Positions 48,001 to 63,000 of a DNA stretch of 64,000 nucleotides are shown here, one piece after another; the stretch's first letter is position 1; every line of letters starts with the position of its first letter. Source of the DNA: Tubiluchus corallicola (lineage: Eukaryota; Priapulida; Priapulimorpha; Priapulimorphida; Tubiluchidae); the NCBI GenBank assembly GCA_030141605.1, contig JAQGDQ010000128.1:248001-312000 (forward strand). Reading direction: 5' to 3'. A program made the position numbers and the translations under genes. The notes below the pieces were generated by a model. The model worked only from the letters and a program-made list of their open reading frames with translations. It made no database searches and was not told the origin of the DNA.

Positions 48001-51000
48001 GTGCACTGGACATGTATGACAGCCTGGACAAAGCATTTTTCGGTTTGCCACAATCAGTGAAGACTTATTCACGATCATCGAATATTTCGGGAAGTCTCAG
48101 AGTCAGCGTCTGAAGAATCAGCACGGACGGCATGCGGTACGGGAGCATTAGGGACAACATTAGGAATGGTATCGCAAATTAAACATCTCGAGCATTGTAA
48201 TTAACTTAATTGTAACATGATGTCTTCTTATGCTCGCCCAGTTTAAAGTTTGTACCCTCTGGAAAACAGACGCTAGATTTATGGCATGCTACGCATGGAC
48301 TGAATGGATTCAATGTAATATCTGCCTCACTACAACGCCGCCTATATACTTACATCTCTCCTAAGCGCTCCCTACGATTTTACCTACTTGAAATTTAAGG
48401 ATTGTCATCGTAACACCTGTACCAATGTATCATGATCAAGTACAATACACTTCAAGCTCGTTAACCGAATAATAAACCTTTTCTAATGACATGACAGACA
48501 TTATTGGTGTCACAGGTATCGCTGCCTCGGCAACAGCGTTCTCTTTCGGCCGCCCCTGCCCTTCATGATGGCAAGAAATACTTGCTATAGCAAGTTAGCA
48601 CTACTGTTATGCCCGTGCGAGCATAGTTGCCACTGGCTACATGCAAAATTCATGTAAATTAATGAATACAAAACAAAAATGAAAATTTTGTTTAATTAAA
48701 TACTTCCTTGTTGAACATCATTTTAATTTTTTTAAATTTAATTGTAATTATAACATATTAATTATTATGATAAACTGAATTGTTGATAACTTTTTAAAGC
48801 TTTGATTAAGCCAATTTGAGGCAAAATTTAATGGCTGGTATGCTACCGAGTGCTGATAAAATGCATGGCAACTAACGAGCGTTGATTATACGTCGATTAC
48901 TAATTTTGTTTCAAAGAGCAGGTTTTTACCTAATAACGCAGTAACAAAATCCTCAGTTATTGGATTTCTTTTCGGTTACGTTTTATTTTTAAATCCATTG
49001 GGACCTTGACTTCCTGCCTAGCACATATCAACTCAAGGTAATATTCACAGATTCCAAGATTGTGCGCAATTACCATTATTATTGCACATGTGTGAGAACG
49101 CAGACGATCCGACGACATGCTAACAGCACATTATGTGAAAATTATCTACACCAACTGGCAAAATACAACCAGTTAAGTGGGAAAAAATAATACCACATGA
49201 TGTATACGTACCTTTTGACATTCCAGCATGATTCACAGAGAAATATTTTGGCCATCTACTTGCGGTGTTAACGAGTTACAGATTACTAAAAAGCGCGCGG
49301 AATTCACGGAATTTCTTGTTTTTATGCACACTGGATTTTTTATTTAAAAATGGCAATGACAGGCTATACCGCAACAAACAGGAAGAGAAATCGATTTTCT
49401 AGAACGCGACGAACCAGGCAGTAATGAAACTCGGTGGAGTTGAAAAACAAACTTTCATACAAATGTGATGCATATGACTTAATGCACTAATTGACCATGA
49501 CATCTTGTAATAAGATAAAATATTACTGATGGGCCTACTGCCAAAGAAAATTCTGGCGCAGGCAGACCGATTGGCAGGCAACTAGATTACAATGCTCCCT
49601 AGCAAGGCCACAAAGCTCGACCCAACCGCGATCGAGGGACGCCCGGTAAACCAACCTAACTCACCCGCAAGACTGTAAACTCGTACCCACAATGCCTCAC
49701 TGGATAATATCACCTTTCAAGCATCTTGCGGCAAAGGGACCTCCAAATGGCTTCAGTGTGAGGTCAAGATTGTCTTGCTTTACCCATGGTGCAAAAAAAC
49801 ACAGAAACTTGTAACATTGTCTTCCTATTGCAATGCTACACTGCCTATATATACTGTGCATTATGTGGGTATTTTTCTCTTGCTAATCAGTAATGTTCGT
49901 TTGCTTGGTTTACGCATTCCTCTCACAGCAACAAGCGATATCGACAGCAATGATGACGGCACTAGAATTTATTTAACAACACATTTTAAGTTAAAAAATG
50001 TAATAAATCAGTTGCAGCCCTGATTTGGTGTATTAATTAAATCGTACTGCTATTTATAGTTTATCTGCTACTGGTTTATTTTCAGCCACGAACCGTTTTG
50101 GGCGGTGAAAATTGTCAGACGGACTGTTCGGAAGTGACGTCGTCAGCAGTATGCGGAAGTGACGGAAGAACATACGATTCCCTATGTGAACTGCAGAGTA
50201 AACGATGTCAGGGAGACGAGGTAGAATACACTCATGATGGAAAATGCAAAGGTATTCGGTGAAGCTATATCTCGTGAAAAGTAGACCTGATACCATGCTT
50301 GTCTCTTATTTTATTTATTGTTGTTAATTTTAAAACAAAATTCATTTCCAAACCGAACTTTCCACTGTCCTTCAAATCGGTATCAATACCTCGGCCGCTG
50401 TGAACTGCAGGCTCCTGGGACCATTGCTATATTAGCATAATTTCTCAAGAAAAATTTTGAGCCTGTAATGTACTGTGGATATAGAGTTGACTGCAAGTTC
50501 TATGTGAGATCTTTTGATCATGATTGGTCAACAACTTCTCTTTTGTTGGCTTCTCTAAATTTATTACTGCAGTAGGTGACAGCCTATGTACTTGCTTTGC
50601 TTCAAATTGTTATTACGTGCGTTTTTATTATTTAAAAATGACCTCAGCCTTTACATACTGAACATATGAAGACCTGGATGCAGTTTAATGCATTAATAAA
50701 AATAGCTCGAAAAATTTGTCACTATATATAACCGCTCACGCTGAGCTATCAATATCGTATTTAAACTTTGAGGTTTAACTCAGTCTTTTAAACAGATAAA
50801 ATGAATATCTCAACGCAGTACCCCGCATCCTACTTGAATTTATTTTGTCAAAAACTATCAAAATTCCGGTTCAAGAAACTTTTGACATTCTGGTAGATTA
50901 CTAAGTCGCCTACGTGAAATTAAAGATGCCATTTATATTGTTGTCCTTTTTTTCAAATGAAGACGTCAAACCTTGAATCATTACATATTGCATAATAAAA

Positions 51001-60000: not shown

Positions 60001-63000
60001 TAGCGTATAAGCAGCATGCTTAATATTAATGTATAAGAAGCACAAAATGTCTGTACTTATCTGCTATGCATTATAGGCCAATGAAGAATTAGGGCAATTA
60101 TGTTATGACTGCATAAAATGGAAAAGTTGTTGCTTGTAAACATCAAGAGCAGGAGTGAATGTGAACAAAAACATCACAAATGTTATCCATGAGTAATTAA
60201 CCACATTACTATTAAATATTATTATTATCATCATCATCATCATTATTATTATTGTTAACAAAAGTTGTTTCTTTTTTACATCAGGATCATGACTAAATAT
60301 GGTTTGTAACAAATGCTGAAATTTATCAGCAATTCTAACTAACCAGTTTAACATTCAGCTTATCAGTAGCTCTTGAGTTGATTAGAAATGCCTTTTCACT
60401 TTTGTTTCATATTAACTAAACATTTCATTTTTTTCTAACAAAAGTTTTTTCTGAAAGATATTAGAAAGGCGGGAGTGGAAGTCATTCAAGATGGAGATGA
60501 AACTGAAGGGAAAGATGCACAAGTGTGGCCGCAATTTTCTTCGTTACTGTGACACAAATCAAGACCGCAAAGTCACTCTGAAGGAGTGGAACACGTGCAC
60601 AGAAGTAATAGAACGTAAGTCAGATACAGTTCATTAACTATTCTTTCATTTCGTCTTATTTCTAAGAAAAGGTGATGCTATTACCTACTGAGAGTCCGCT
60701 CTGACTGCTAAGAAAACCCAATGTTTTTATGAGTGTACTTTATCTAAAAATTTCTTTTATTTGCCCAAGAATGTTGGTCAATTCATGCAGTGCTGAATGT
60801 ATAAACCTCCGGGCTTTGCTTGGCTTACTGATCTAGTGCTTATCATGCTGATTGCCAATTGGAAGGCAGATCAGCTTGTCTAATAGTTGCAGAAGTATCA
60901 ATAGTGCCATTGGTTATAAAAGTCAGCTTTACAGTTTGCTTCATATTTGCTTACATTTAAAGTATAAATAGTGAATATCTAGATAAGAATCAACAGTCGT
61001 GCATTCATTTGATTAAAAATCTAAAGTAGTTTTGATAACTGGATTTGTAAACTAGTCTGGGATGCAAAGCATTGGGTTGCTTACTTATTTAGTTTTTTCT
61101 GCCCAACTACCAGGATATGTAGAACACTATTTACCATTGTCTTGGAAAGTACTACCATGACAAAGTATCTTTCAACCAAATTTTCACTTTCTAGCTGCTC
61201 TACAAGCTGAGCTATGGCCCTTTAAAATGAATTGCAAAACCCAGTGAGCTTTGGTTGCCTTGAGTCTTACCTCTCTCTCTCTCTCTCTCTCTCTCTCTCT
61301 CTCTCTCTCTCTCTCTCTCTCTCTCTCTCTCTCTCTCTCTCTCTCTCTCTCTCTCTCTCTCTCTTCCACACCCTTTGTCCTTTCTGGCCACAATACTCAA
61401 GTCACATTATCACATTATAAAGAAAGGTCTGAACCAGACTTGGTCACACAATCGCTCTGTCTTTCTTTCTTTCCATTCATCTCTTTATTTTTCTCTCTTT
61501 TCTTTGCTTCCCTCCCTTCTCTCTTCTCCTTTCTCTCTCTTTTCTTTCTCTCTTTCTTTTTCTCATTCTCTCTTTCTTTGATGTCATCTTCTTAAAGAAT
61601 TTTTTGTAAAGTCAATACTAAACTGTTAAAACATCAGTCATATTTCGGAAAAATTATTCAAATGCCTGTTGGCCATGCTGCAGACATGATGATCAAGACA
61701 ATATGCAAGACTCGGTTGAAATATTAAAAACTAAGCAGCTAACAGGTCATAGATTGTAATTGCCATGAATCCAAATTTTGATGGAAATTTAGTATGCATT
61801 GTTTGTCTCACGATGAGTAAATGGCAAAATTTTGTACTGCATGTACAAGAACAAGACTATAGCGTTATTTACATCTTGTCCAAGCTTTACAGACTGAAGC
61901 AGCAACATGAACTGAAAATCTAAATTGTGAACTTTGCATGAACTTTGCCCAGGAGTTCTGGCCCAACTGTATCTTAAAAAGATACTTAAACTGTAAAATT
62001 AATGTTAAGCCAAATAGTAATCAACTTTATAAACTTCAAATTTTGACATTTATTAAAGAAACTTCAAGTAGCCACTGGACCTATGTTCTTCTCATTCACT
62101 TTTCTGACAAGGCTTCAACAATCAAAATTTGTACACTGGTGTACGTATTTTAATATTATATGTACGTAATAATGTTTCACACTTTAAGGTTTTAAGAGAA
62201 AGAGATGCTACAGCTTAAAAACATAGTATATTTGCAAGCAAAAATGACATTTTAATTAATAATTGTATAAACTGTGATGTGTTAATTGAATCAAAGTTTT
62301 TTCTAAAAACTAGCAAAAGCAAAAAATTAATCATTATAAATAGTTGGCTATTTGTGTAGTGAATGATTCAATAGCTCTGGTGTAAATTGAAATGCATGTT
62401 ATTAATTTTTTCATGTTTGTTCCTCGTTTAGCATAACACTGCTCTACAGCACCTAAAGTTCTCAAGTTTATTTTTGATCAGATGCTTTTTTCAATTTAAA
62501 ATGATGTTTTTTGCCACTACCACTCATTTTTTGGCATTATTTGTTTATATTGCACAGTAATTGCTCCTGGATGCTTGCCTACTTGCTAACAGATGTTATG
62601 GGCTAATTTTATTGGCCATATGTGTGCCTCAAGTAGAGGAGTATTATAAACACTTGGAAAATTGCATTCATTCGCAGTCACACATCTGACGAAGATTTTT
62701 CTTTTGCCCATTCCATCAAATTTGTGTAAAAATAGATAAGAGATTGTCATTGCAATGATGAAAAGTGTCTTTATCTGCTCTTTTATTAAAAGAATAACAA
62801 ATTTTAATCATGTCTTGCTGTTATATGAACAAAACTGGAAACCGTATCTTATTATTATCCTTAAAGGACATAAAAACAAATATGTGCTTACATAAGCCTA
62901 AAAAATTGTCTTGAAATTTTGTATCATCTACATGTTGTCTCATAGCATGAAAGCTTATATTTGTAGTAACGATATGTAAATCTTGTAAATTTAAACTATC

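Follow-up and report, generated by a model that had tools for sequence, protein, structure and literature searches.

SMOC proteins tune BMP gradients via glypicans, and they share the SPARC_Ca_bdg (EC) domain with SPARC/hevin and testican (SPOCK), which carry a single EC. As described in the literature cited here and below, Drosophila Pentagone (Pent, Magu), the single SMOC homologue of the fly, has a follistatin-like (FS) domain followed by two alternating thyroglobulin type-1 (TY) and EC domains (PMC10464977, PMC5360445), with the additional EC lying between the two TY domains (PMC5360445). Vertebrate SMOC1 and SMOC2 have one EC, at the C terminus behind FS, TY1 and TY2, and the one SMOC gene of echinoderms has the vertebrate domain set, including an EC (PMC10381214). 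C. elegans SMOC-1 is shorter, with one TY followed by one EC and no FS, and its EC binds the glypican LON-2 (PMC10464977). Here we describe a gene in a stretch of 64,000 nucleotides, hereafter the window, from contig JAQGDQ010000128.1 (positions 248,001 to 312,000 of the forward strand). Judged from its sequence, this gene is very probably the SMOC/Pentagone orthologue of this animal and would encode a matricellular protein of the order FS-TY-EC-TY-EC. An earlier sequence-only reading had set the double EC apart from known SMOCs; the published description of Drosophila Pent as FS-TY-EC-TY-EC means that the layout was already known, and we regard the gene as a Pent-type SMOC. Pent differs in its host clade and was compared by published layout rather than by sequence alignment. 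Our literature searches returned no match for a SMOC with "two EC domains" or for SMOC together with amphioxus and EC domain, and among the matches listed no title or abstract start gave the SMOC layout of molluscs, annelids or brachiopods, which is not proof of absence in print. In PMC4924993 none of the domain terms looked for occurred.

The predicted protein reads Kazal/follistatin-like, TY, EC, TY, EC and basic tail. With the TY and EC pieces scanned separately, the first EC (EC1) matched SPARC_Ca_bdg (PF10591) at 9.4e-16 (58.6 bits, positions 3-113 of the 113 in the profile) and the second (EC2) at 9.7e-13 (48.9 bits, profile 42-113), against a Pfam cut-off of 22 bits, and both TY domains exceeded the cut-off of PF00086 (Table 1). 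A whole-protein scan placed Kazal_2 at residues 9-54 of a 529-residue model. The pieces thus have the arrangement of the family, with TY followed by EC (PF00086 and PF10591 twice each, alternating), the Kazal domain N-terminal and one EC between the TY domains. A six-frame, splice-blind search of the whole assembly, in which 11 candidates were scored, found SPARC_Ca_bdg at four places, two of which are EC1 (window 55240-55449, 1.2e-12) and EC2 (60455-60598, 7.7e-4). The frames at the other two, which matched the profile again on rescan, resemble, as we read them, testican and SPARC. All four 12-residue EF loops of the gene (DKNGDSALSKKE, DLNQDNQILKKE, DTNNNKILERRE and DTNQDRKVTLKE) have acidic or Asn ligands at positions 1, 3, 5 and 12, and the motifs W-x-F/Y-x-x-L-D and RYCD are present in its EF pairs. 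For domains predicted from sequence, the profile matches and the four loops are far beyond chance.

These results bear out most of the sequence-only reading, which had proposed a SMOC-like Kazal-TY-EC-TY-EC protein of 555 residues with two EC copies. The two TY, two SPARC_Ca_bdg and Kazal_2 matches agree with that order, all four TY and EC pieces lie above cut-off, the EF-hand entries and ligand positions are as described, and the splice-blind search and the reproduced 555-residue model point the same way. Its further claim that the EC copies follow the same plan stands for the cysteine positions and EF motifs but finds no support in sequence likeness for the helix with a leading Cys. The segments preceding the EF pairs are identical at only 8 of 39 positions (z 0.7 against shuffled letters), and since they align like shuffled letters, the likeness there is one of position and of the EC1 Pfam match.

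Features that mark SMOC within the larger family are found in both EC copies. The EC of SMOC has been described as having a minor insertion between helices E and F and a cluster of basic residues (PMC3578922), and vertebrate SMOC1 and SMOC2 share the insertion and the basic helix E/F face with this protein. EC1 and EC2 each have a 3-residue E/F insertion relative to the SPARC and hevin sequences of the PDB, whereas the SPARC- and testican-like EF pairs of this genome do not, nor did the other SPARC/hevin and testican sequences compared. Eight basic residues were mutated in human SMOC1 (PMC3578922), and the corresponding positions are basic in 6 of 8 cases in EC1 and 5 of 8 in EC2. The human SMOC1 sequence used here, in Table 1 and in the comparisons below was checked at 10 positions for which PMC3578922 and PMC3131273 give the residue, and all 10 agree. 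Among ECs, human SMOC1 gave the top score with the EF part of EC1 (29/65 identical), which scored 149 with EC2 vs 91 with human SPARC. In a tree of seven EC sequences (66 columns), EC1, EC2 and the human SMOC ECs were set apart from SPARC, hevin and testican (94), with none of three orders within that group rejected. The same tree split human SPARC from hevin, which we take as a sign of too little signal.

Several observations weigh against this assignment. The EF part of EC1 shows about the same level of identity to human SPARC (23/61) and to EC2 (25/65). The additional residue in EF1 of human SPARC is absent from both EC1 and EC2; this is no mark of SMOC, because the SPARC- and testican-like loops of this genome likewise have 12 residues. 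A single-sequence structure model of exon D, which holds the EF pair of EC1, has helices at 5-25, 32-45, 49-61 and 65-75 (mean pLDDT, the model's own confidence score, 71), the predicted count being that expected of an EF pair; fold searches with this model gave no significant match, with EF-hand proteins (centrins, L-plastin, secretagogin) present among the 50 Foldseek rows listed at E values of 1.2 to 3.7 only. It is the profile evidence that carries the predicted EC assignment. The exon joins are read from genomic DNA rather than from a transcript, and the signal-peptide-like candidate leader at 42055-42132 is uncertain. As to function, neither XSMOC-1 nor Pent had been found to bind BMPs, according to PMC10464977.

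The presence of two TY-EC units might reflect a wrong fusion of two adjacent genes, one with FS-TY-EC whose last exon is D and one with TY-EC that begins around exon G. Some 2.5 kb do separate the EC1 and TY2 exons, and worm SMOC-1 consists of one TY-EC unit alone (PMC10464977). Nevertheless, we consider a fusion highly improbable: all joins between exons A and K preserve a single frame, the EC1 frame stays open up to the donor at 55469, exon F bridges the gap with good borders, and Pent carries these domains in the same order on a single chain (PMC5360445). The TY domains speak to the same point, as each has its own human counterpart as closest match (Table 1), although the cross pairs are not far behind at 33/64 and 31/64. 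In a TY tree (four sequences, 67 columns), the approximately unbiased (AU) test rejected no order, with p 0.76 for the one that pairs each domain with its human counterpart and 0.34 and 0.23 for the remaining two. We consider it unlikely that EC1 arose independently here and in flies, by tandem duplication of the C-terminal EC in each. The best EC tree does join EC1 with EC2, weakly (bootstrap 44), yet none of the three orders tested was rejected (AU p 0.67 for that tree, then 0.51 and 0.44); over the full domain, moreover, EC1 and EC2 are the least alike of the three pairs (33/105, 31%, vs 40/106, 38%, for EC1 and human and 37/106, 35%, for EC2 and human), and the additional EC of Pent occupies the corresponding position, with a TY domain on either side (PMC5360445).

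The sequence-only reading had also suggested that the segment between the TY domains of vertebrate SMOCs could be a degenerate EC1. Such a segment occupies the same place as EC1, and in a human model the part between the TY domains appears to replace a contact between EC and BMP (PMC10464977). The human segment has only 65 residues vs 187 here, however, and its alignment with EC1 does not exceed that of shuffled letters (global z -0.0, local z 0.8), so that the suggestion finds no support and we rate decay of this kind as quite improbable; the alignment would also be compatible with an EC that was lost outright. Either the deuterostome line may have lost EC1 in this way, or protostomes may have gained it. 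The EC and TY identities fit a duplication older than the vertebrate split, hence a loss of EC1 in deuterostomes, although no tree order is rejected. With such a loss, bilaterian SMOCs would have started out with the double TY-EC, which flies and this animal have retained, a reading that we put at somewhat below an even chance. To the same guarded extent, only a short stretch of unrelated sequence may have remained in place of a second unit for binding calcium and heparan sulfate. The earlier claim of an old duplication is consistent with these data, as the identity of EC1 to EC2 is not above that of either copy to human, but the EC trees reject none of the three orders.

The exon structure, which had been offered as a further sign of age, is as stated, with EC1 in two exons and EC2 in three (one intron and two), but it is weak evidence, amounting to a single additional intron within the EF1 loop. 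In both copies the first intron falls 17 residues before the Trp of the EF1 helix, in phase 1 in EC1 and phase 2 in EC2, by an ungapped count; pairwise alignments place gaps in between. The second EC2 intron follows codon 6 of the EF1 loop. In the SPARC-like gene of this genome, assuming that the better of its donors is used, an intron lies inside codon 6 of that loop; the testican-like gene has none at the site. The EF1-loop introns of EC2 (59867/60458) and of the SPARC-like gene (locus L003, about 990/1500) differ in position by no more than about one base. The additional intron of EC2 may be an old one that EC1 has lost, and the number of exons is consequently a poor guide to age.

The gene model comprises ten exons on the + strand with AG/GT borders and matching phases, running from 50086 to a TAA stop at 63357 (Table 1). 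The exons of the earlier span, 50086 to 60614, were all reproduced, but the gene extends further at its 3' end and probably starts upstream of 50086. With the candidate leader joined, the exons yield the 555-residue translation with cysteines at 191/273/281/297 and 426/503/511/527, exactly as previously numbered. That leader came from a screen upstream of 50050 for an ATG, a hydrophobic stretch, a good donor and phase 0, run at three thresholds with the reverse complement as control. The real strand gave 1, 1 and 5 candidates and the control 1, 2 and 7, and because the control gave as many or more, the leader is not established. The 54-base cassette, which may be an optional exon, was left out of the 555-residue model. 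A long (TC)n microsatellite lies within the last intron of the gene, at about 61270-61365.

Table 1. Coding features of the predicted SMOC/Pentagone gene, in window coordinates.
Feature	Position	Strand	Evidence
Candidate leader exon, 26 aa, signal-peptide-like, uncertain	42055..42132	+	Sole match of the strictest screen upstream of 50050
Exon A: follistatin-like/Kazal domain	50086..50251	+	Kazal_2 6.1e-10; splice borders
Exon B: TY domain 1	52234..52449	+	PF00086 3e-21 scanned alone; 36/64 identical to human TY1
Exon C: basic linker and EC1 start (C191)	52851..53054	+	EC1 SPARC_Ca_bdg match begins in this exon
Exon D: EC1 EF-hand pair (C273, C281, C297)	55223..55468	+	SPARC_Ca_bdg; six-frame genome search too
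Optional cassette, 54 bases/18 aa, frame-keeping, EC1-TY2 linker	56217..56270	+	AG/GT borders and phase only
Exon F: basic EC1-TY2 linker	57590..57700	+	Frame and splice borders; 13 K/R in 50-residue linker stretch
Exon G: TY domain 2	58013..58264	+	PF00086 8.6e-22 scanned alone; 34/66 identical to human TY2
Exon H: EC2 start (C426)	59361..59442	+	Splice borders
Exon I: entering helix and first half of EC2 EF1 loop	59783..59867	+	SPARC_Ca_bdg, profile from 42
Exon J: remainder of EC2 EF pair (C503, C511, C527)	60458..60614	+	SPARC_Ca_bdg; six-frame genome search
Exon K: strongly basic C-terminal tail and stop codon	63287..63357	+	AG acceptor, frame, TAA

How far back the double module can be dated depends on where this animal belongs, for which we turned to homeobox genes in the assembly, which totals 343.5 Mb over 2344 contigs. 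At least 118 homeobox places were found, with 150 of 186 candidates scored, and a homeodomain pattern was recognised in 23 of the 30 loci examined. Nine homeodomains we read, by our own naming, as Hox1-, Hox3-, Hox4-, Scr-, Lox5-, Antp-, Lox2/Ubx-, Post1- and Post2/Abd-B-like, and those that we presume to be Scr-, Lox5- and Antp-like share a contig (C1217), where they follow one another in this order on the same strand. As the Scr-Lox5-Antp order also fits an arthropod, a lophotrochozoan-like reading rests on the Post1- and Lox2-like sequences. If that reading holds, the same layout occurs in two protostome branches, which would suggest that the double module dates at least to the protostome ancestor. 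Searches of the assembly gave no match for COX1 (PF00115) and none for the arthropod cuticle family Chitin_bind_4 (PF00379); the latter result leans against an arthropod, but weakly, as its controls matched nothing either and absence is not demonstrated. Octamer statistics were uninformative about the host. Two contig pairs (L028/L029 and L030/L031) have identical homeobox scores, and the translated stretches of L030/L031 are identical as printed; uncollapsed haplotypes in the assembly are possible for this reason.

Elsewhere in the window, frames at 28872-34151 (+) resemble what we take to be acid lipase exons, with Abhydrolase_1 at 1.1e-6 for 28872-29102 and no Pfam match at 0.1 for 33891-34151. 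An open frame at 1169-1495 (-) has no Pfam match at 0.1 and resembles the start of what is presumably a monocarboxylate-transporter-type membrane protein. Window-wide Rfam (gathering threshold) and tRNA scans gave 0 matches.

What the sequence shows directly is the order of the domains, the EF loops and the retained basic positions, and secretion, calcium and heparan sulfate proteoglycan (HSPG) binding and BMP modulation are inferred from studied relatives. According to the proposed mechanism, each EC would form a calcium-binding EF-hand pair with a basic helix E/F face, and these faces, together with the basic linkers and tail, would bind HSPGs such as glypicans. Lysine and arginine make up 14 of 38 residues in one linker, 13 of 50 in the other and 10 of 25 in the tail, which suggests multivalent heparan sulfate binding through the basic EC faces, linkers and tail. 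The two TY domains might contact BMP or another partner; contacts of TY and EC with BMP dimers have been modelled (PMC10464977), and Pent widens the range of Dpp and internalises Dally and Dlp (PMC10464977, PMC8034876). With a pair of HSPG-binding units and a pair of TY units in a single chain, the protein would be able to displace BMP at glypicans or to bridge it there, and BMP signalling would be widened or damped as a result.

Beyond the two-unit question the gene is ordinary. The number of EC units differs between flies and vertebrates, and the ancestral state matters when findings from either are applied to the other. With a Pent-type protein also present outside the arthropods, two units would date to the protostome ancestor or earlier, and fly Pent would then appear less odd.

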